Part shown: one piece after another, positions 13,605 to 59,274 of the stretch
Position numbering within the stretch: the first letter of the stretch is position 1
Layout: each line of letters opens with the position of its first letter
Source: Candidatus Hodarchaeota archaeon
Lineage (GTDB): Archaea > Asgardarchaeota > Heimdallarchaeia > Hodarchaeales > Hodarchaeaceae
DNA: 64,000 bases
NCBI GenBank assembly: GCA_016839815.1
Contig: JAEOTM010000032.1
Location: forward strand, 1-64,000
Direction of reading: 5' to 3'
Made by a program: the position numbers and the translations under genes
Notes under the pieces: model-generated
The model's input: the letters and a program-made list of their open reading frames with translations, nothing else
Told to the model about the DNA's origin: nothing
Database searches by the model: none

Positions 13605-14147
13605 ATGGTGATGTATAGCTGTAAGGTCATATTATTAGGACAGGGAGGTGTAGGTAAGACCTCGGTTATCCGTCGCTTTGTAGAGCAAGCTTTCAGCCAT
13701 GATTACAAAACAACAGTTGGCAGTAACTTCCTACTTAAACGTCTTCAACTTGATGCCGAAACACGCATGACAATGCAGATCTGGGATTTAAGCGGTCAGG
13801 ACTCGTTTAGGAATATCCGAACGCAGTATTTCTTGCACTCCCACGGGGGAATCATGGTCTATGATTTGACGCGTCCTGAAACCCTGCATAAGCTTGACAA
13901 ATGGTATGCCGATTTTACTGAAAAAGCGGGTGGAGTTCCCTTAATGCTTTTTGGGAATAAAGTTGATTTAGCGGAGGAAAGAGTGGTCGACTCCGATGCT
14001 GGTGCGAAACAGGCAGAAAAATTTCATGCTACCTATTATGAAACCTCTGCTTTGGATGGTACTAATGTTCAAGAAGCTTTTACTCAACTGGCCAAACAAA
14101 TAATTGCCCACATTGACGCCAGACGAAGTAAAATTTCAAATAAATAA
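13605..14147 (+). CDS. Ras/Rab-like small GTPase
   Basis: GQGGVGKTS (G1), TTVGSNF (G2), WDLSGQ (G3), NKVDLA (G4), ETSALD (G5); no C-terminal Cys prenylation motif. Confidence 0.93.
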   Translation: MVMYSCKVILLGQGGVGKTSVIRRFVEQAFSHDYKTTVGSNFLLKRLQLDAETRMTMQIWDLSGQDSFRNIRTQYFLHSHGGIMVYDLTRPETLHKLDKWYADFTEKAGGVPLMLFGNKVDLAEERVVDSDAGAKQAEKFHATYYETSALDGTNVQEAFTQLAKQIIAHIDARRSKISNK

Positions 14148-15449: not shown

Positions 15450-16238
15450 ATGAAAAAACATCTGCATAATCTCTCTTGGCGTATAATTCCCTACTCTCGA
15501 AATAACGCATATGTCAATATGGGAGTAGACGAAGCAATTTATCAATTATTCAAGGATCATAAGGTCAATACCTTGCGTTTATACAGTTGGGAGCCAAGTA
15601 CTGTGTCGATAGGTCACCATCAATACCTACATGACGAGATAGATCTCTCTATGCTTGAAAAATATAAACTTCAGGTTGTTAGACGTATTTCTGGAGGAGG
15701 GGCTGTTTTTCATGATTCAAGGGGAGAATTAACATACTCCGTTGTAACAACTACGAATCAAGTAGCAAGTACATCTGTTGAAGCGAGTTATTACGAAATT
15801 GTAAATCTTTTATTCTCTCCACTTACTAAGATTGGCATATCCATTGACTTTAATCAAATCCATTGTCCAAGTGTTTTTAGCCAAGGTAAAAAAATTTCAG
15901 GTAACGCACAGGCGCGGTCAGGAGATTTAATTCTACAACATGGAACGATTCTGATAGATTACAACCCTGAACTAATGTATTCTGTTCTTAAAGCCCGTCC
16001 AGGAAGAACAAAGACACAAATGGTACAATCTGTATATCAAAAAGTCACTACAATACATGAACAGTTAGAAAAACCTGAGTTTACTCCTCGGACTCTTGCG
16101 GAATTTATTACGAAAGAGCTTCTAGAGAATCATGCTTCTACTTTTTCCTTAGGCCAATTATCCGCTGAGGAAAAACGTCTTTCTAAACAATTAGTAGAAG
16201 AAAGATATAAATCTAAGCAATGGTTATTTCTCAAGTAG
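15450..16238 (+). CDS. lplA: Lipoate-protein ligase A family protein
   Basis: 'RRISGGGAVFHDSRGELTYSVV' lipoate ligase motif; 'GKKISGNAQARSGDLILQHGTILID'. Confidence 0.88.
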   Translation: MKKHLHNLSWRIIPYSRNNAYVNMGVDEAIYQLFKDHKVNTLRLYSWEPSTVSIGHHQYLHDEIDLSMLEKYKLQVVRRISGGGAVFHDSRGELTYSVVTTTNQVASTSVEASYYEIVNLLFSPLTKIGISIDFNQIHCPSVFSQGKKISGNAQARSGDLILQHGTILIDYNPELMYSVLKARPGRTKTQMVQSVYQKVTTIHEQLEKPEFTPRTLAEFITKELLENHASTFSLGQLSAEEKRLSKQLVEERYKSKQWLFLK

Positions 16239-17211
16239 ATATCACTACGTTCTCCTTAAACTCTTGTTGAAGATAATTCACAAGAAAATTTTCGGGAAAC
16301 AGGTATTTACCATTTATTTGGTATTTAGTCAACTGATGGGGAAATGTTTCCTCAAGATGTGTCACTACTGACTCAGCCACCATTCTAGCCAGAGAAAGGT
16401 CAGATTTCTTATCTGTAATTATTGCACATAGAAGTTTTTCCCGTTTAACCATCACTATAGAATAGTTTTCTGTGATCAGTGAATCTAAACCTCCAGTAGA
16501 CCCCATCATTCCACTTGCAAATTCATTAATGGCGTTTAAAAACCCAGGTACGATATCATTGTCCATAGCTGATTCAGGTTGATTCATAAATAAATGAGAG
16601 ACTATTGGTACTCCTGTACGAAGAAAAAGATAGATTCCTTCAACTTTGATATATTTTTTTGCTATTGAGAGTGCTATTTTTTGAGAAAACCAATTTAAAG
16701 CCCGATCAATATTCATTCCTGTCTTAACAGAAATTTCAAATATCTGGAAGGATCGAGTTGGGCTTTGATGGGGTAATCTCCGTAATTTGACTTTATCAAT
16801 CAACTTAGGTAATTCAATATGTGTCAAATCAGCTTTATTTGCTAGAATCATGAGTGGTGCCTCTGGATTCCATTTTAAGCATTTCCACAGCCATTCCACT
16901 GCAGTATCCAATTTTTCAAGATCATTCGCATCGATCATAAACACGATTCCTTGTGATAGTTTAACGTACTCTTTCCAAAACATTTCTCGGAATCGTTCGT
17001 GTCCCCCCAAATCAAATAGCTGGAAAAGATTGCCTTGAATTTCCAAGATTTCTGTATCTAGTCCTGATGTCGGTACTGTTTTTCCAAATTCTCCGGTTTG
17101 GAGGCGTAATACAAATGAAGTCTTCCCTGCAAACTCTAGCCCGACAATAACTATTGGTATACGTTTTCTTGGAAATCCTTGCATGAATGCCTCAACTCTG
17201 ACATTGCGCAA
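16231..17211 (-). CDS. Arf-like small GTPase with C-terminal longin-like domain
   Basis: GLEFAGKTS (G1), PTSGLDTE (G2), FDLGGHERFREMFWKEY (Arf-type G3), NKADL (G4); C-terminal 'VEGIYLFLRTGVPIVSHLFMNQ...GFLNAINEFASGMMG...YSIVMVKREKLLCAIITDKK' resembles longin regions of the 42093 and 47872 CDSs. Confidence 0.8.
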   Translation of the reverse strand: MRNVRVEAFMQGFPRKRIPIVIVGLEFAGKTSFVLRLQTGEFGKTVPTSGLDTEILEIQGNLFQLFDLGGHERFREMFWKEYVKLSQGIVFMIDANDLEKLDTAVEWLWKCLKWNPEAPLMILANKADLTHIELPKLIDKVKLRRLPHQSPTRSFQIFEISVKTGMNIDRALNWFSQKIALSIAKKYIKVEGIYLFLRTGVPIVSHLFMNQPESAMDNDIVPGFLNAINEFASGMMGSTGGLDSLITENYSIVMVKREKLLCAIITDKKSDLSLARMVAESVVTHLEETFPHQLTKYQINGKYLFPENFLVNYLQQEFKENVVIST

Positions 17212-41407: not shown

Positions 41408-42103
41408 TTACTCCATTTTCCATACACTTTCCCCATGCCAATCCCGGATCCTCTTGATAGGACTACCAGCATAAATTGAATTTGGTTCTAAAACCCTATT
41501 TGCTGGAATCACTGAATTACTGGCAACAATAACGTTATCCTTAATTGTAACACCTGGTAAAATGATTGTTCCAGCACCAATTGTGCAGTTTTTTCCAATG
41601 ACAATTCGTTTGCGGAAAAGTTCTCCTTGAGATATAGCATGTGCCCCAATAATACAACCAGTTCCGATAGAAGTATTTTCTCCAATTTCCATTAATTCAA
41701 CATCCCAGATTCGAGTATAAATGGCTGCTCCCTTACCAATTTTAGCCCCAAATAATTTATAGAAAAGTGAGGGGAACATCTGGTTAATAAACAGTTTATT
41801 GACAAAATAATAAGCAGTATCTGCAGCTGTCATACCGACTCCCCATAACAGTTGATCTCGACCCGTCAAGATTCCTTCTTCTTTCTTCATAAACAATCTC
41901 GCTAGCTTATGAATGATTGCTAAGATGAACAATCCTGTGAATAATGTTAGAGTAATTGCACAGATGATTGACAAATACAGATTATTTACGAATAATCCAT
42001 TGTAAAAGAGATCAAAATACCATACACCGATGAAAATTACTGATGCTAGTAACACAATCTGAAAGAAAACCCAGGTAACCATATTCATACCCTTAGATTT
42101 CAA
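41408..42103 (-). CDS. Membrane-anchored hexapeptide-repeat (left-handed beta-helix) acyltransferase-like protein
   Basis: Two TM helices, then 'IGENTSIGTGCIIGAHAIS...IVIGKNCTIGAGTIILPGVTIKDNVIVASNSVIP'. Confidence 0.82.
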   Translation of the reverse strand: MKSKGMNMVTWVFFQIVLLASVIFIGVWYFDLFYNGLFVNNLYLSIICAITLTLFTGLFILAIIHKLARLFMKKEEGILTGRDQLLWGVGMTAADTAYYFVNKLFINQMFPSLFYKLFGAKIGKGAAIYTRIWDVELMEIGENTSIGTGCIIGAHAISQGELFRKRIVIGKNCTIGAGTIILPGVTIKDNVIVASNSVIPANRVLEPNSIYAGSPIKRIRDWHGESVWKME

Positions 42104-43751
42104 TGTTTGTTGAAGGAGATAGATGACCGAAGACCTCTTCTGCGATATCTACAGCTCCATCGAACACACTGCGTGCTCCATTCCAAGTCGCTAGGTGTTT
42201 ACCGTACTGAGCACAGAATTGAATTTGGAATTCATGCAATGCCTTTTTTAATTCCATATCATGTTTATTACAGAAAATGACGGTAGAAATTCCTGTATCT
42301 TTATCTTTATCAGTAATAATGAAGTGATTACCATGTCTGACCAGATTCAAGTTACCTTTTTCCCTCATCATTTCAGACATAAAGGAAGAAACAGCAGTAA
42401 GTGCTCCTGAAAGTAGTGTGAGCTCAATATCGGTATCTAGTTTTTGTTGAAATGCATAATCAAATAGTGGTAAGCCACCCTCTTCAATCACCATGAGTAA
42501 CGTGAAGTCTAATGGTTCATAACTATCAGTTGTCCAAAATAGAGGAAATGCAGCGAAAACCGCTAAGATAATCAAAATGTATGTCACGTAATCTAAATTC
42601 TCGAGGAGTGGAACTAAGAACCAATGGCCAACACCATACCCTGCACCAAGTCCTAAAGCTAGCGATATAAATCCTAGTGCAAAATATCGTCCTAAACCAT
42701 CACGAGGAGAAAGATCAGCCCACAAAGAAGAATCTAATGTAGGATGGATTAGTGCAAAAGAAAATCCGATCGTTAATGCTGAAATGAAGAAACTTGCTTC
42801 AGATTTTTCGAGACCTAGTATCATTGCGGAAAAAACAATGCCATATATCGCTAATACGATTAAATTCTTCCGACCAATTTTATCAGCTAGAAATCCAGCT
42901 GGTATAACTAACAGCAAATCACCAACTAATACCAAAACCCAAAAAAGTTGATCTACACTAAATTGCAGTTCCCCAAGGGCGGGAAATTTAAAGGTTTCTG
43001 TTATATCCAACACTGATCCTATTAAAGGGAATATAGCTATAGAGATTCCAAGCATACAGTACAATAAGAAATGAGTACTCAAATATGCTTGGACAGACCG
43101 ACGACCAACAATTTTCGTAAATTTGGTTGGCCATGCATCAGGTACCCAGTATTTCAAATCACGGGAGAGTAAAAAGAATACTAAAGTCAAGATGAGTCCC
43201 AATACCCCAATTCCTGGAATGATTACAACCCAGCTATTACTTAATGGATCAGTTTCAGCAAAATCAGAGGAAATCTCATTTCCAATTATAATACTCACAA
43301 GTACTAAGATAATAAATAGAAAAATTGCAGTAGAATATGTTTTTCCGCGTGAAGCTGAATTAGTTAATCCTGCAAATAGTGTCCCACTGCTTGTAAGGAG
43401 AATAGCAAAGGAAAATGCTAATCCGACCAGTGAAACAGAAAATAAGATAGCTGAATTAATAAAAACAATGAATAACGTTGAGGTTATTGATGCACCTAAC
43501 ATACCAATCATAATCCCCTTCTTCAGAAATTCAGGATGTGAATCAAGATAATGTCCTGTGAAATAAAGGACTAGAATCACGAGAAGAAGAAGAACGCCTA
43601 ATATTACTATTCCCAAACCCATAAAAGGATTATCATCAGATTGTTCGACATAATCTAATATTTCGAAAGAATAAATCAATAATAGAGTAGCTGCTAAGCA
43701 CCATGTGAATGTACTGGGTATTATAATGAGGAAAAATCGTTTTACATCCAT
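42093..43751 (-). CDS. MFS-like membrane protein with C-terminal longin-like domain
   Basis: ~12 TM with 'GFLADKIGRKNLIVL'; C-term 'FTLLMVIEEGGLPLFDYAFQQKLDTDIELTLLSGALTAVSSFMSEMM...NLNLVRHGNHFIITDKDKDTGISTVIFCNKHDMELKKALHEFQIQF'. Likely start Met 43751 (track 43838). Confidence 0.75.
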   Translation of the reverse strand: MDVKRFFLIIIPSTFTWCLAATLLLIYSFEILDYVEQSDDNPFMGLGIVILGVLLLLVILVLYFTGHYLDSHPEFLKKGIMIGMLGASITSTLFIVFINSAILFSVSLVGLAFSFAILLTSSGTLFAGLTNSASRGKTYSTAIFLFIILVLVSIIIGNEISSDFAETDPLSNSWVVIIPGIGVLGLILTLVFFLLSRDLKYWVPDAWPTKFTKIVGRRSVQAYLSTHFLLYCMLGISIAIFPLIGSVLDITETFKFPALGELQFSVDQLFWVLVLVGDLLLVIPAGFLADKIGRKNLIVLAIYGIVFSAMILGLEKSEASFFISALTIGFSFALIHPTLDSSLWADLSPRDGLGRYFALGFISLALGLGAGYGVGHWFLVPLLENLDYVTYILIILAVFAAFPLFWTTDSYEPLDFTLLMVIEEGGLPLFDYAFQQKLDTDIELTLLSGALTAVSSFMSEMMREKGNLNLVRHGNHFIITDKDKDTGISTVIFCNKHDMELKKALHEFQIQFCAQYGKHLATWNGARSVFDGAVDIAEEVFGHLSPSTNIEI

Positions 43752-43970
43752 TTTAACATATCCTGTAGAATTATACTTAGTTAGGGTGTGGATCTCAAGC
43801 TTTGGTAAGGATTTCAAAGCTCTAGCAATAATTATCAAAATAGGGTAAAGAGATTAAATCCTTTATTCAGCTTTCTCACATTATACTAACACCTTAAATA
43901 AACCTCATCGAAGCATATTAGGACAAGAATCTTTTTGGAAAAAGGATTTTTACTCAAGATAATTACAGGG

Positions 43971-45035
43971 ATGCCGAATCAATTGACAATAAATAACTAT
44001 TTCACTCTACTCTCCGAACTTGTGAATATTCCAGGACCTGTTGGACGAGAGGAGAAAGTTCAACAGTTTTTAGCCAATAAATGGAAAGCTTCTGGTCTTG
44101 ATGTTGAATTAGATAGAATTGGAAATTTATATGGACGTCTGAATGGAGAAGGTCCGCATTGGGCAATTGTATCTCATGCTGACACAATTGGTTTTCTTGT
44201 GCAACAGATACTTTCTAATGGTTTCTTGAAAGTGGCATTTAATACTGCTGCAACTACACCCGATGCCCGTTTCCTCGCAGGATCCAAGATTCGATTCCTA
44301 ACCAATGAATCTCAAGATATATTCGGTTATTTTGGATTGAGAAGTGGTCATCTTGCAGGAATTGAGGGGAAGAAAAAACCAATATTATTTGATGAAATGT
44401 TTATTGATCTTGGAACAAACTCAATTGAAGAAGTGAAGAAATTAGGAATTGATATCGGGACCCCTGCTGTTTTTAACTCTCCTATATATCAAATTCAAAA
44501 CAATATTGTAGGCCCTTCAATGGATAACCGAATTGGAGGTACTATTCAGACTATTCTTGTCGCCAATTTGATGGAAAAAGGACTCCGCCCAAATTTGACT
44601 TTGATTTCAACTGTTCAAGAGGAGATTGGAATGAAAGGAGCTGCAGCAGCTGCAAAAAATGGAGAATATGATGGAGTGGTAAACCTAGATGTAGGATTAA
44701 CAGGAGATATCCCGCCTTCCAAGCAAGACTACGTACCAACTAAACTCGGACATGGACCTATTCTTGTTGTAAAAGACTTTTCAATCCATTATTCTCATTC
44801 ATTATTAACATCACTTGCTGAGGTTGCTTTACATGAGAAAATTCCATTCCAGAAAGCAGTGTTCAAAAATTATAACACTGATGGAATGCATTTCTTTATG
44901 AATGGATTCCCTACAATTACTGTTTCCATACCATGTAGATATACTCATACAAACTTCGAAACGATTAATCTTTCTGACGTTCAAAATACGTTAACTTTAC
45001 TAGAATCATTACTTTCATTATCAGTAAATGTGTAA
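43971..45035 (+). CDS. M42-family metallopeptidase (glutamyl/deblocking aminopeptidase-like)
   Basis: 'WAIVSHADTIGFLV', 'GPSMDNRIGGTIQTILV', 'STVQEEIGMKGAAAAA', 'NTDGMHFF', 'IPCRYTHTNFETI'. Track start 43935. Confidence 0.88.
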   Translation: MPNQLTINNYFTLLSELVNIPGPVGREEKVQQFLANKWKASGLDVELDRIGNLYGRLNGEGPHWAIVSHADTIGFLVQQILSNGFLKVAFNTAATTPDARFLAGSKIRFLTNESQDIFGYFGLRSGHLAGIEGKKKPILFDEMFIDLGTNSIEEVKKLGIDIGTPAVFNSPIYQIQNNIVGPSMDNRIGGTIQTILVANLMEKGLRPNLTLISTVQEEIGMKGAAAAAKNGEYDGVVNLDVGLTGDIPPSKQDYVPTKLGHGPILVVKDFSIHYSHSLLTSLAEVALHEKIPFQKAVFKNYNTDGMHFFMNGFPTITVSIPCRYTHTNFETINLSDVQNTLTLLESLLSLSVNV

Positions 45036-46761
45036 ACAAGAATCGTGTGTGTCCACTGTGAATCAAAAAAACGTAATCCTTGTCAAACTGGGAGGAAGTC
45101 TAATAACCTATAAACAGGATGAGAATCGAATTAAAGAGTACATATTAGCTATTGAACAATTTCGCTGCGGTACGGCTTCATTAGAAGAATTAACTTCAAC
45201 AATATCCAACCTTCTAAATACAAGTACACTTAAAGAAATATTTAGAACCCTCAACATCTATATACAGAGTAATCCCTCCTCGAAAGTTATCGTTATACAT
45301 GGAGCTGGATCAATAGGCCATTCTCTTGTTTTACATCTCTTAAAGACTGAAACTGACCTAGAATTTGTCTATCCTCTAATCAAACTTGCTGTCTCCATTC
45401 AGAACCACTTAATTACTGGAATCGGTATACAACTAGGTCTAAATGCTATTTCACTCTCATCTCATCAGCTTATGCTTGGATATCCTACTGATAAAACATC
45501 TTCTCCTCGTATCGATGCAACTGATTTATCAACTTTGGAAACACTGATTCTGAACACTGACTCTGTTCCTATTTTCTTCGGGGATGTTGGACTTACCCAA
45601 AAATCACATGTGGATTTACCTGGTGAATGGAAAGTCTTTTCGGGTGATTTAATACCAACTGCACTTGTTCGGAGTTTTAAAACCTTACAAATTGATAAAG
45701 CAATCTTTCTAACTCAAGTACCAGGAAAAATGACTGGAATTTATTCAAAAGATCCTGATCTAGCTGATGCACAATTTATTAGACGCATCGAAGTTGGATC
45801 AAAAGCCAATCGGTATTATAATGTAGAGAATTCACAAATTCATTTTCACAAAGATGCTACTCAGTCAAAATATGATGTAACTGATGCAATGGAAGGAAAA
45901 TTAAGGAATTTGATTGATTTAGCGCATCAGAATGTTACTAGCTGGGTAATTGGATTTGAGGAGTTTGATAAAGCCCTACGGGGAGAACTCGTCGGAACAA
46001 GAGTTCTTCCAGAAAAAGATCTCAATATCAAGGCTGTTTTTCTAGGTAGAGGAGATGCATTTAGTTCAGGTGGATTTAAAAGTGCCTCTATTTTACTAGA
46101 ATTTCAAAATAAAACTATTTTGTTAGATTGTGGTCCTCATACACTGCAAGCTTTGAAAGCTTCTGGAAGAAAATCAACAGAAATTGATTGGATATTAATT
46201 TCGCACTTCCACGGAGACCATTTTGGAGGTATTCCATATTTTCTCTTAGAATCAACATTTCAACACCAGAGAAACAAGCCATTGACGATTATTGGCCCTC
46301 CAGGAATCGAAAAGGTTGTGAACGACCTTTTTACATCATTGTATAAGCGTGAATCATCAAAAACACGCCCATTTCCCATTAAATATAGGGAAATTACACC
46401 TGCTAAACCTTATGACGAAAATGAAATTATAATAACAGCGTATCAAATGAATCATACTCCCGAGGCACAAGGTTATAGAATAAAAAGTAATTCGAGTTTT
46501 ATTGCTTATACCGGGGATACTGGATGGACTGAAAACTTGATTCCTCTAATTTCTGATGCACAACTCGCAATTCTTGAGTGTAATTTCTACCAGAGTCAAT
46601 TTGAAACCCATTTGAATTGGCAGGAAATTCTGAATGTGTATCATCTTGCTGAAAAAACTGCAATAATACACCTTGGTGCAGAGATGGTTGCAGAAATTGA
46701 TAACCTAGTTGGTAAAAAGAATCTTTATATTCCCTTAGAAGGTCAAACTATCAGAATCTAG
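45028..46761 (+). CDS. Fusion: amino-acid-kinase (isopentenyl phosphate kinase-like) + metallo-beta-lactamase (RNase Z-like)
   Basis: N-half 'VILVKLGGSLITYK', 'VIVIHGAGSIGHSLV', 'VFSGDLIPTALV', 'KYDVTDAMEGKLRNLIDLA'; C-half 'SHFHGDHFGGIPYFLLE', 'YTGDTGW'. Single uninterrupted frame. Confidence 0.87.
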   Translation: MCKQESCVSTVNQKNVILVKLGGSLITYKQDENRIKEYILAIEQFRCGTASLEELTSTISNLLNTSTLKEIFRTLNIYIQSNPSSKVIVIHGAGSIGHSLVLHLLKTETDLEFVYPLIKLAVSIQNHLITGIGIQLGLNAISLSSHQLMLGYPTDKTSSPRIDATDLSTLETLILNTDSVPIFFGDVGLTQKSHVDLPGEWKVFSGDLIPTALVRSFKTLQIDKAIFLTQVPGKMTGIYSKDPDLADAQFIRRIEVGSKANRYYNVENSQIHFHKDATQSKYDVTDAMEGKLRNLIDLAHQNVTSWVIGFEEFDKALRGELVGTRVLPEKDLNIKAVFLGRGDAFSSGGFKSASILLEFQNKTILLDCGPHTLQALKASGRKSTEIDWILISHFHGDHFGGIPYFLLESTFQHQRNKPLTIIGPPGIEKVVNDLFTSLYKRESSKTRPFPIKYREITPAKPYDENEIIITAYQMNHTPEAQGYRIKSNSSFIAYTGDTGWTENLIPLISDAQLAILECNFYQSQFETHLNWQEILNVYHLAEKTAIIHLGAEMVAEIDNLVGKKNLYIPLEGQTIRI

Positions 46762-47306: not shown

Positions 47307-47867
47307 ATGACAAGCAAAGAAATCAAGCATGTATTAAAAATACTGCTCCTTGGGGATGGAGCCGTCGGAAAAACTTCATTAATTCTAAGATTCATTGAAA
47401 ATAAGTTTAAAGATGAATATTCTGTAAGTTTGGGAGTGGATTTTCTCACCAAAACCATTAATTTCATTGATGAAGATGATATTAAGCGAGTGGTATCCTT
47501 ACAAGTGTGGGATATAGCAGGTCAAGCGAGACATGTGTCTTACTCACACCTCTACCTCAAAGGTGCATTAGGAGCGTTTTATGTATTTGATTTAACCAGA
47601 AAAGACACTTTGGCGCAGATTCAGAATCGCTGGCAACTCCAAGCTCTCAAGGCATCACCTAATCACATTGGTATTCTTATTGGAAATAAAGCGGATTTAA
47701 CTAAAGAGAGAGCGGTTCCTGAATCGCAATTGAAGCAGATTATTGATAGTATGCATGTTCTTGAATTTATAGAAACGTCTGCAAAGACAGGTAGAAATGT
47801 TAACAAGGCTTTTCAAAAATTAACCACAGAAATCCTGCGTGTGAAACCAAAAAAATTCCTGAAGTGA
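47307..47867 (+). CDS. Rab/Ras-like small GTPase
   Basis: GDGAVGKTS (G1), SVSLGVDF (G2), WDIAGQARH (G3), NKADL (G4), ETSAKTG (G5). Confidence 0.93.
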   Translation: MTSKEIKHVLKILLLGDGAVGKTSLILRFIENKFKDEYSVSLGVDFLTKTINFIDEDDIKRVVSLQVWDIAGQARHVSYSHLYLKGALGAFYVFDLTRKDTLAQIQNRWQLQALKASPNHIGILIGNKADLTKERAVPESQLKQIIDSMHVLEFIETSAKTGRNVNKAFQKLTTEILRVKPKKFLK

Positions 47868-47871
47868 GCTC

Positions 47872-48642
47872 ATGTCCCCTTTAACCGAATTTAAAGCCGT
47901 GAAAGCATTTTTCATCTTTGAAAAAGATCAAGGCACTACATTATTCACCCGATCCTATGAACGGAGTTCAACTGCACCCGATGCTCATCTTGTTGTCGCA
48001 TTCTTAACAGCTATGTTTTCTTTTGCAAAAACAACATCACTTAGTGACTTAAGAGTTGTGGATATGACCGATATTCGATTCTCATTTATTGAAAAAAATA
48101 GATTAATCTTCGCAGTTCTAGTCTCCCCTCTTGTTTCACCTCTAGATATTCAGTTCAAGCTATCCACTATAGCGAGCTTGTTTTTCTCGGATTATGGAAA
48201 TGAGCTAGATTCAATTGATATTGTTGACACAGAAATGTTTGATGATTTCAATGACTCAGTTGATGAGATTTTTGGTGGAGAGACACGCCAAATGCTTAAA
48301 TCATCGAAAAATGCAGCTCTATTCTACTTGAAGAAATTAGTATCCAAAGAAGAGACAGGAGCTCGAGGTGCGATGATTTTATCTTTTACAGGTGATATTC
48401 TCCTTGAATATAAAATGGATCAGCCCCGAATGGCTGCTGCTATTCGTATTTTGAACGTAGGAACCTATATGACCAATCTTCGATACTTAGTTGTTGCTTC
48501 TGAGTCAACTCACCTTGTTGCATATAAAATCAGTGAGGGATTACTACTTGCAGTTGATGGCCACCCATCATACGGTCTTGAGGATCTAGTAGTGAATGTT
48601 TCCGAAACGGTGAAGCAAATAAAGGAAATTATTCCCCATTAA
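47872..48642 (+). CDS. Longin-like + roadblock/LC7-like two-domain protein
   Basis: N-half 'VKAFFIFEKDQGTTLFTRSYER...FLTAMFSFAKTT...IRFSFIEKNRLIFAVLVS'; C-half 'GARGAMILSFTGDILLEYKMDQ...NLRYLVVASESTHLVAYKISEGLLLAVDG..PSYGLEDLVVNVSETVKQI'; 4 nt after the GTPase stop. Confidence 0.78.
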   Translation: MSPLTEFKAVKAFFIFEKDQGTTLFTRSYERSSTAPDAHLVVAFLTAMFSFAKTTSLSDLRVVDMTDIRFSFIEKNRLIFAVLVSPLVSPLDIQFKLSTIASLFFSDYGNELDSIDIVDTEMFDDFNDSVDEIFGGETRQMLKSSKNAALFYLKKLVSKEETGARGAMILSFTGDILLEYKMDQPRMAAAIRILNVGTYMTNLRYLVVASESTHLVAYKISEGLLLAVDGHPSYGLEDLVVNVSETVKQIKEIIPH

Positions 48643-58341: not shown

Positions 58342-59274
58342 TCAACTTATTAGTATTTTCTTTTCTTTTGTTTCAAGATGACGAATTACTTCTGTAATCG
58401 CCATATTAACAGGTGCTTTCATTCCATGAACTCGACTTTCTGTAGTAATATATCCGTTCATAAATTCAATCTCTGTACGACGTCCTCGCTCGATATCCTG
58501 AAGCATACTACATTTATTATCCTTTGTTTTATTAATCACTTCTTTTATAAATTCAGGAGAAGTAGAAAAATCTTCATCTGGAAGAAGCTGATTAGCTAGA
58601 GCTATTCCTTCTTTAAGAATCGCGTTAAAAATCCGTACAAAAGAAGGCCGTTTTAGAATCTCTCCATTCTTTGCATGAAGAATCGTACCAAGTGGACAGA
58701 TAGCAGCATTAGCAAGGAGCTTATACCACATTTTTAACTGAATATTTTGAGTTTCTTTTATATTGAAACCTGATGAGGATAGTATTTGCTCAACTTGGCT
58801 ACTAAATCCATTTCCTTTACCTGATACAATTCCGAAAGAAGTCTTTCCAAAAGCAACATGCTTCACAACTGCTGGTTGAAGGTGTTCTGCTGCCTCTGTA
58901 GTAACAGCACGATAAATTGGATTTTCCGGAAAATTTTCCTTGAATATGGTTTCATTTCCCATTCCATTCTGAATAATGAATATGGGTGTTTCTTTATTGA
59001 TCCGATTAGATAGCGAACTTGCTACAGTATGATTATCGTATGCTTTAGTTGTGACAAATAACGCGTCGGATTTTTGTTGTGTAGGATTATATTCGGTATT
59101 TGCAGGTAAGAACGAAACAATGTTTGATTCATCCTCTAAAATCGTGAGGCCTTTTTCTTGAATTTTGTTGACGTGATCTTTTCGTCCAACTACATCTACA
59201 TCAAAACCCGAATAAGCAACTCTACCAGCAAATAATGAACCGATACTTCCTGCTCCAATAACGGATATATTCAT
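58342..59274 (-). CDS. panE: 2-dehydropantoate 2-reductase
   Basis: 'ISVIGAGSIGSLFAGRVAYSGFDVDVVGR', 'TTKAYDNHTVA', 'KMWYKLLANAAICPLGTILH'. Confidence 0.9.
   Translation of the reverse strand: MNISVIGAGSIGSLFAGRVAYSGFDVDVVGRKDHVNKIQEKGLTILEDESNIVSFLPANTEYNPTQQKSDALFVTTKAYDNHTVASSLSNRINKETPIFIIQNGMGNETIFKENFPENPIYRAVTTEAAEHLQPAVVKHVAFGKTSFGIVSGKGNGFSSQVEQILSSSGFNIKETQNIQLKMWYKLLANAAICPLGTILHAKNGEILKRPSFVRIFNAILKEGIALANQLLPDEDFSTSPEFIKEVINKTKDNKCSMLQDIERGRRTEIEFMNGYITTESRVHGMKAPVNMAITEVIRHLETKEKKILIS

Follow-up and report, generated by a model that had tools for sequence, protein, structure and literature searches.

Recurring fusions of membrane proteins to a longin-like domain point to a possible membrane-sensor arm of small-GTPase signalling in Asgard archaea

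The Hodarchaeales have been proposed as the sister lineage of eukaryotes. Asgard genomes encode dozens of small GTPases alongside longin and roadblock domains, and in eukaryotes domains of this type control small GTPases. Longin and roadblock domains serve as dimeric platforms for small GTPases and are often exchange factors (PMC10933270), yet gene layout in Asgards hinders the pairing of GTPases with their regulators (PMC10933270). Longin domains and GTPase-longin fusions are already known from this phylum, including longin-GTPase-roadblock proteins, in Lokiarchaeum and MK-D1 (PMC4917890, PMC10933270), and longin has also been described in combination with ESCRT-related domains (PMC10936438). 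A precedent for a roadblock-type signalling output is NitrOD3, a roadblock-related output domain of archaeal response regulators (PMC5847659). For carriers, the precedent is the lysosomal transceptor SLC38A9, which signals through its cytoplasmic part to the Rag GTPases and the roadblock-based Ragulator (PMC4922434). In a survey of Asgard transporters, longin receives no more than a brief mention in the introduction (PMC7997004). Our search of the open-access literature, with subscription papers and preprints outside its scope, returned no report of longin fused to transporters or receptors.

Here we describe a major facilitator superfamily (MFS)-type membrane protein that ends in a cytoplasmic longin-like domain. 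It shares phylum and domain superfamily with the known Asgard GTPase-longin fusions, one of which type is encoded in the window at 16231. Those proteins are soluble, whereas here the partner is a polytopic membrane protein and the chain contains no GTPase. The likeness to SLC38A9 is one of analogy only: that protein transports amino acids, belongs to a different carrier family and binds Ragulator through its N-terminal cytoplasmic region, whilst here the longin-like domain itself sits at the C-terminus of an MFS protein. NitrOD3 differs in being REC-associated, in coming from other archaea and in not being fused to a membrane protein. The window, that is the whole 64,000-nucleotide stretch of Hodarchaeota contig JAEOTM010000032.1 that was analysed, contains the following features:

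42093..43751, minus strand: MFS-longin protein, probable true ORF (ATG start, 552 aa, MFS_1 E=1e-10)
42512..43751, minus strand: 12-TM MFS moiety, residues 1-413 (transmembrane and charge count, Pfam MFS_1)
42506..42529, minus strand: linker T-D-S-Y-E-P-L-D of about 8 residues, from TM12 to strand 1 (read from the sequence)
42096..42512, minus strand: cytoplasmic longin-like domain of about 127 aa, DFTLLMVIEEGGLPLFDY ... to the C-terminus (genome family, fold, PDB profile and roadblock profile-profile comparison)
41408..42103, minus strand: membrane-anchored left-handed beta-helix (hexapeptide) acyltransferase (Pfam Hexapep 2.7e-12, synteny)
47307..47867, plus strand: Ras/Rab-like small GTPase, candidate partner (Pfam Ras 3.7e-42; ortholog near MFS-longin in 7 congeners)
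47872..48642, plus strand: longin-like protein beside GTPase 47307 (first domain of the same family, 4.6e-11; weak Fuz_longin_1, E=0.005)
16231..17211, minus strand: Arf-like GTPase fused to the same longin-like domain (Arf 6e-32; domain profile 2.2e-10)
13605..14147, plus strand: Ras/Rab-like small GTPase (Ras 9.9e-48)

A preliminary description had placed an ORF at 42093-43838 without stating its strand. The reading frame is real and lies on the minus strand, and both the MFS loop motif quoted there (GFLADKIGRKNLIVL) and the quoted C-terminal sequence match the translation letter for letter. The length of 581 aa probably does not hold. The TTG start of the long ORF is probably unused in favour of the ATG at residue 30 (43751), which coincides with the start in a close ortholog (L069) and therefore makes a product of 552 aa likely. 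The soluble C-terminal domain is neither chance nor read-through, since 10 MFS orthologs and paralogs encoded on named Hodarchaeota and Heimdallarchaeota contigs have it too, two of these contigs being labelled as chromosomes. All named relatives of the protein come from MAGs assigned to Candidatus Hodarchaeota or Heimdallarchaeota, in line with a Hodarchaeales-type Asgard source for the window. A run-on or assembly artefact was ruled out by the occurrence of the same fusion in many independent MAGs, these chromosome-labelled contigs included. A plasmid search gave no match.

The N-terminal moiety carries the roughly twelve hydrophobic helices of MFS type that had been proposed; 12 TM segments were counted and Pfam MFS_1 was matched at 41.5 bits against a gathering cut-off of 33.4. 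Lysine and arginine residues are distributed very unequally between alternate loops (17 at cytoplasmic parity, 2 at outer parity), so that by the positive-inside rule both termini are cytoplasmic (N-in/C-in). The MFS motif G-x-x-x-D-R/K-x-G-R-R/K is kept in the C-half, in loop 8-9, as GFLADKIGRK, and is degenerate in loop 2-3 of the N-half (GHYLDSHPEFLKK). Among orthologs the linker after TM12 follows the conserved pattern DS.(E/P)PL, and in distant MFS-longin proteins the pattern (E/D)(S/T)LPP/S..EEMEW.

When the domain was searched against its own genome, 7 copies were found, 6 of them on other ORFs. A profile built from these seven returned 36 matches at E<1, 30 of which were at 1e-4 or below. 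The resemblance to regions of the proteins at 16231 and 47872, suggested previously from the sequence alone, was borne out by this profile, which was made without either protein and recovered both (2e-10 and 5e-11, respectively). Two MFS proteins, four 7-TM-like proteins and two further polytopic proteins end in the domain at the C-terminus, as do two large proteins with an ectodomain and a single TM segment, one of which has Ig-like repeats. Further partners are a ParA/MinD-like ATPase, a HerA-like ATPase, TPR repeats (the ParA, HerA and TPR labels being assigned by eye, not by model) and Rag-like GTPases, and the domain also occurs alone. The copies include two GTPase-containing ORFs on contig C198.

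We then asked to which fold this family belongs. The domain itself had no match in Pfam and NCBIfam scans, neither to Robl_LC7 nor, significantly, to the curated longin HMMs. When 62 family members were scanned singly, 6 matched Fuz_longin_1 (1.4e-4 at best) and three matched Robl_LC7 (6e-5), with further matches to Intu_longin_1 and Sybindin. The genome has 11 Robl_LC7 matches, at loci distinct from the longin-like set apart from one borderline overlap. A profile of the seven domains found no relative in the PDB, and broader profiles were needed. With 30 domains the leading matches were MON1, TRAPP subunit 23, a dynein roadblock chain and AP-2 sigma; with 62 domains from several Asgard families they were TRAPP subunit 23 (0.0024), MON1A (0.014) and MglB (0.015), and an Asgard roadblock and TRAPP subunit 1 were also among the top matches. 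By sequence profile the closest solved relatives, through weak matches, are thus the first longin of MON1/FUZ/HPS1 and the TRAPP longins (Bet5/TRAPPC1, Trs23/TRAPPC4), which are soluble parts of heterodimers in eukaryotic Rab exchange factors and not fused to carriers. Moreover, hhalign aligned the family with nine true Robl_LC7 domains of the same genome (P=1.4e-6, prob 90), the controls giving P 0.28 for the reversed profile and 0.025 for the best of 40 column shuffles. A weak match to MetOD1, which belongs with HNOB/V4R (PMC5847659), was dropped.

Structure prediction gave weak models. The single-sequence AlphaFold model of the whole protein was uninformative (pLDDT 41), and that of the domain, from 18 window and Hodarchaeal sequences, was of low confidence (pLDDT 53.5, pTM 0.44). 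For this reason we used Foldseek as an enrichment pattern and not as a source of significant matches. The best match was the Sec22b longin (prob 0.92, E=0.014), with nothing below 1e-3, and among the top 50 matches listed all 50 belong to the longin/roadblock superfamily and none to PAS or GAF. Longin domains are ordered beta1-beta2-alpha1-beta3-beta4-beta5-alpha2-alpha3. The low-confidence model of the domain gives strand, helix, three strands and two helices, strand 2 not being formed. Roadblocks start with a helix that is absent from longins, which carry an additional helix at the C-terminus (PMC10933270). The domain can be aligned with the core strand-helix pattern of roadblock/LC7 proteins (MglB, LAMTOR, archaeal roadblocks), but it lacks their N-terminal helix, its strand 1 starting about 8 residues after TM12, and it has two C-terminal helices. 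We prefer the label longin-like to roadblock because strand 1 comes directly after the membrane and helices follow strand 5; no membership of any named longin family is claimed. Each of these tests is weak or modest alone and all converge on the longin/roadblock superfamily, a placement that is strong but indirect and that supports the fold assignment first proposed. Neither an unrelated fold nor a known MFS-associated domain of another fold emerged.

Treated earlier as a lone curiosity, the protein belongs instead to a set of membrane-longin proteins found throughout the phylum. With a profile that ran from the last MFS helices into the domain, both parts were recovered together in 11 of the 12 genomes available for the genus and in one further genome from the order. 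Distant examples were then used to build a second profile, which extended this to at least 64 of 228 Asgard genomes from at least 10 families, counting matches across both parts on ORFs of 430-611 residues. Most of the MFS-longin proteins scanned were above the cut-off for MFS_1; two fell just below and one (L117) had no match. The gene is under purifying selection (MFS part, dN/dS 0.03-0.04; domain, dN 0.06 with dS saturated), and between orthologs the domain is the better conserved (67-70% identity against 54-58% for the MFS part). A tree of 63 domains contained three MFS clades with support and placed the Ig-ectodomain protein of the present genome beside an MFS-type domain (support 100/80), so the domain has been swapped between membrane partners. 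Tandem MFS-longin gene pairs are found in the genus and in family f19. In two genomes of that family (L101 in G107, L102 in G106) a stand-alone longin gene of 130 aa lies one gene away from MFS-longin and is a possible heterodimer partner. A 366-aa ORF (L057, G080) combines about half an MFS (5 hydrophobic segments) with the longin domain; it may be a gene that has been truncated or else a carrier of half size.

The GTPases at 13605, 16231 and 47307, named as possible partners in the preliminary description, all belong to the Ras/Arf families by Pfam. Kept together across the genus are the MFS-longin gene or tandem pair, the hexapeptide acyltransferase, a kinase/metallo-beta-lactamase fusion, GTPase 47307 and longin 47872. 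The acyltransferase gene overlaps the stop of MFS-longin; nearly all congeners keep it alongside, some with two copies, and it could be a clue to the substrate. The fusion (45028-46761, plus strand) unites amino-acid-kinase and metallo-beta-lactamase domains in one ORF, the long form being kept in relatives, and its kinase part is possibly isopentenyl-phosphate-kinase-like. The GTPase and its longin neighbour lie within 5 kb in the window, as do their orthologs in seven congeners, and are missing in one (L090), a count that leaves out L094, where the pair was not assessable. Genome-wide, Ras-family genes lay near the domain hardly more often than by chance (P about 0.04 at 2-3 kb, 0.18 at 5 kb and 0.48 at 10 kb). 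Proximity was therefore rejected as proof of function and the conserved neighbourhood is taken as suggestive only, as it may partly reflect general gene order within the genus. The earlier proposal that such a protein could couple a small GTPase to transport or membrane identity thus has contextual support, from this neighbourhood and from the fusions of the same domain to GTPases.

With moderate confidence, we read the protein as transceptor-like, with a longin output that would bind small GTPases. Substrate binding or transport would shift the C-half of the MFS moiety, whose TM12 connects to the domain through some 8 residues, and so short a linker could let the conformational change reposition the domain. 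The longin domain, alone or dimeric with another longin (probably as a homo- or heterodimer), would then dock or activate a Ras/Rab/Arf-like GTPase at the membrane. This reading is favoured because the domain is present in at least 30 copies in the genome, including GTPase fusions and partners in the window and on C198; because membrane-longin fusions recur in many Asgard families with the domain better conserved than the MFS part; and because the GTPase and longin pair is kept close by in seven congeners. The 12-TM N-in/C-in topology, the fold evidence and the exchange of the domain seen in the tree also count for it. The role of longin and roadblock domains as GTPase platforms (PMC10933270) and the carrier precedent of SLC38A9 (PMC4922434) argue in the same direction. 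It is weakened by the poor AlphaFold model, by the lack of a Foldseek match below 1e-3 and of a direct Pfam longin match, and by a genome-wide GTPase proximity that barely exceeds chance.

The same anatomy and synteny would also fit a true carrier of the MFS, perhaps an exporter, that is switched or positioned by a GTPase binding to its longin, which would make the protein an effector and not a sensor. The intact loop 8-9 motif is that of MFS carriers, and the conserved acyltransferase neighbour suggests a small-molecule or lipid substrate. We nevertheless regard a GTPase-gated carrier as rather doubtful, as the loop 2-3 motif is degenerate in the subfamily and the domain also ends 7-TM and Ig-ectodomain proteins that resemble receptors, not carriers. 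Longins also act without GTPases, in SNARE and adaptor binding, which counts against the transceptor-like reading too. Many eukaryotic ones, such as SNARE longins and the AP sigma and mu subunits, serve in dimerisation or as adaptor or peptide-binding modules (PMC10933270, PMC4917890). Here the domain could likewise have such a role and sort, cluster or autoinhibit the membrane protein with no direct GTPase contact, which would be compatible with heterodimers from the tandem gene pairs and with the weak genome-wide proximity to GTPases. This we consider unlikely, given that Asgard members of the domain family occur in direct fusion with Arf- and Rag-like GTPases and that one adjoins a GTPase in the conserved neighbourhood. 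That the fold is instead a different alpha/beta one from the broader PAS/GAF/roadblock group, with the domain serving for instance in ligand-binding regulation of a transporter, is very improbable: the low-confidence model, the missing Pfam matches and the grouping of longins with the PAS/GAF superfamily (PMC4917890) leave room for it, but the best 50 Foldseek matches without PAS or GAF, the sequence-only profiles leading to TRAPP, MON1, MglB and roadblock, and the roadblock alignment with clean controls all speak against it.

To return to the transceptor-like reading, the MFS proteins, the 7-TM proteins, a 7-9-TM protein with an HTH-like stretch and the Ig-ectodomain protein with one TM segment are best read as sharing the domain as their cytoplasmic output. 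These recurring fusions suggest that small-GTPase signalling in Asgards has an undescribed arm at the membrane, where sensors and carriers may drive the GTPases. The membrane-longin set makes GTPase control testable with defined protein pairs, and offers a possible archaeal counterpart of eukaryotic carrier-to-Rag signalling. More broadly, and tentatively, one portable longin might form a membrane-receptor-to-GTPase layer as the shared output of MFS transceptors, 7-TM receptors and Ig-ectodomain receptors, replacing histidine kinases and representing a prokaryotic precursor of carrier/longin/Rag-type nutrient sensing.

Lastly, the domain was noticed at three loci elsewhere in the same genome. 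At G000:C149:57591-57962 and 58709-59098, the 7-9-TM protein ending in an HTH-like stretch and longin is convergent to a HerA-like ATPase with longin. Clustered at G000:C89:5188-9146 are two roadblock proteins, a Ras-like GTPase and a ParA/MinD-like ATPase with a longin domain, a candidate GTPase-regulator operon. Two divergent genes at G000:C198:1979-3278 each encode a Rag/Arf-like GTPase preceded by a longin-like domain, an arrangement that recalls paired Rag-type GTPases.
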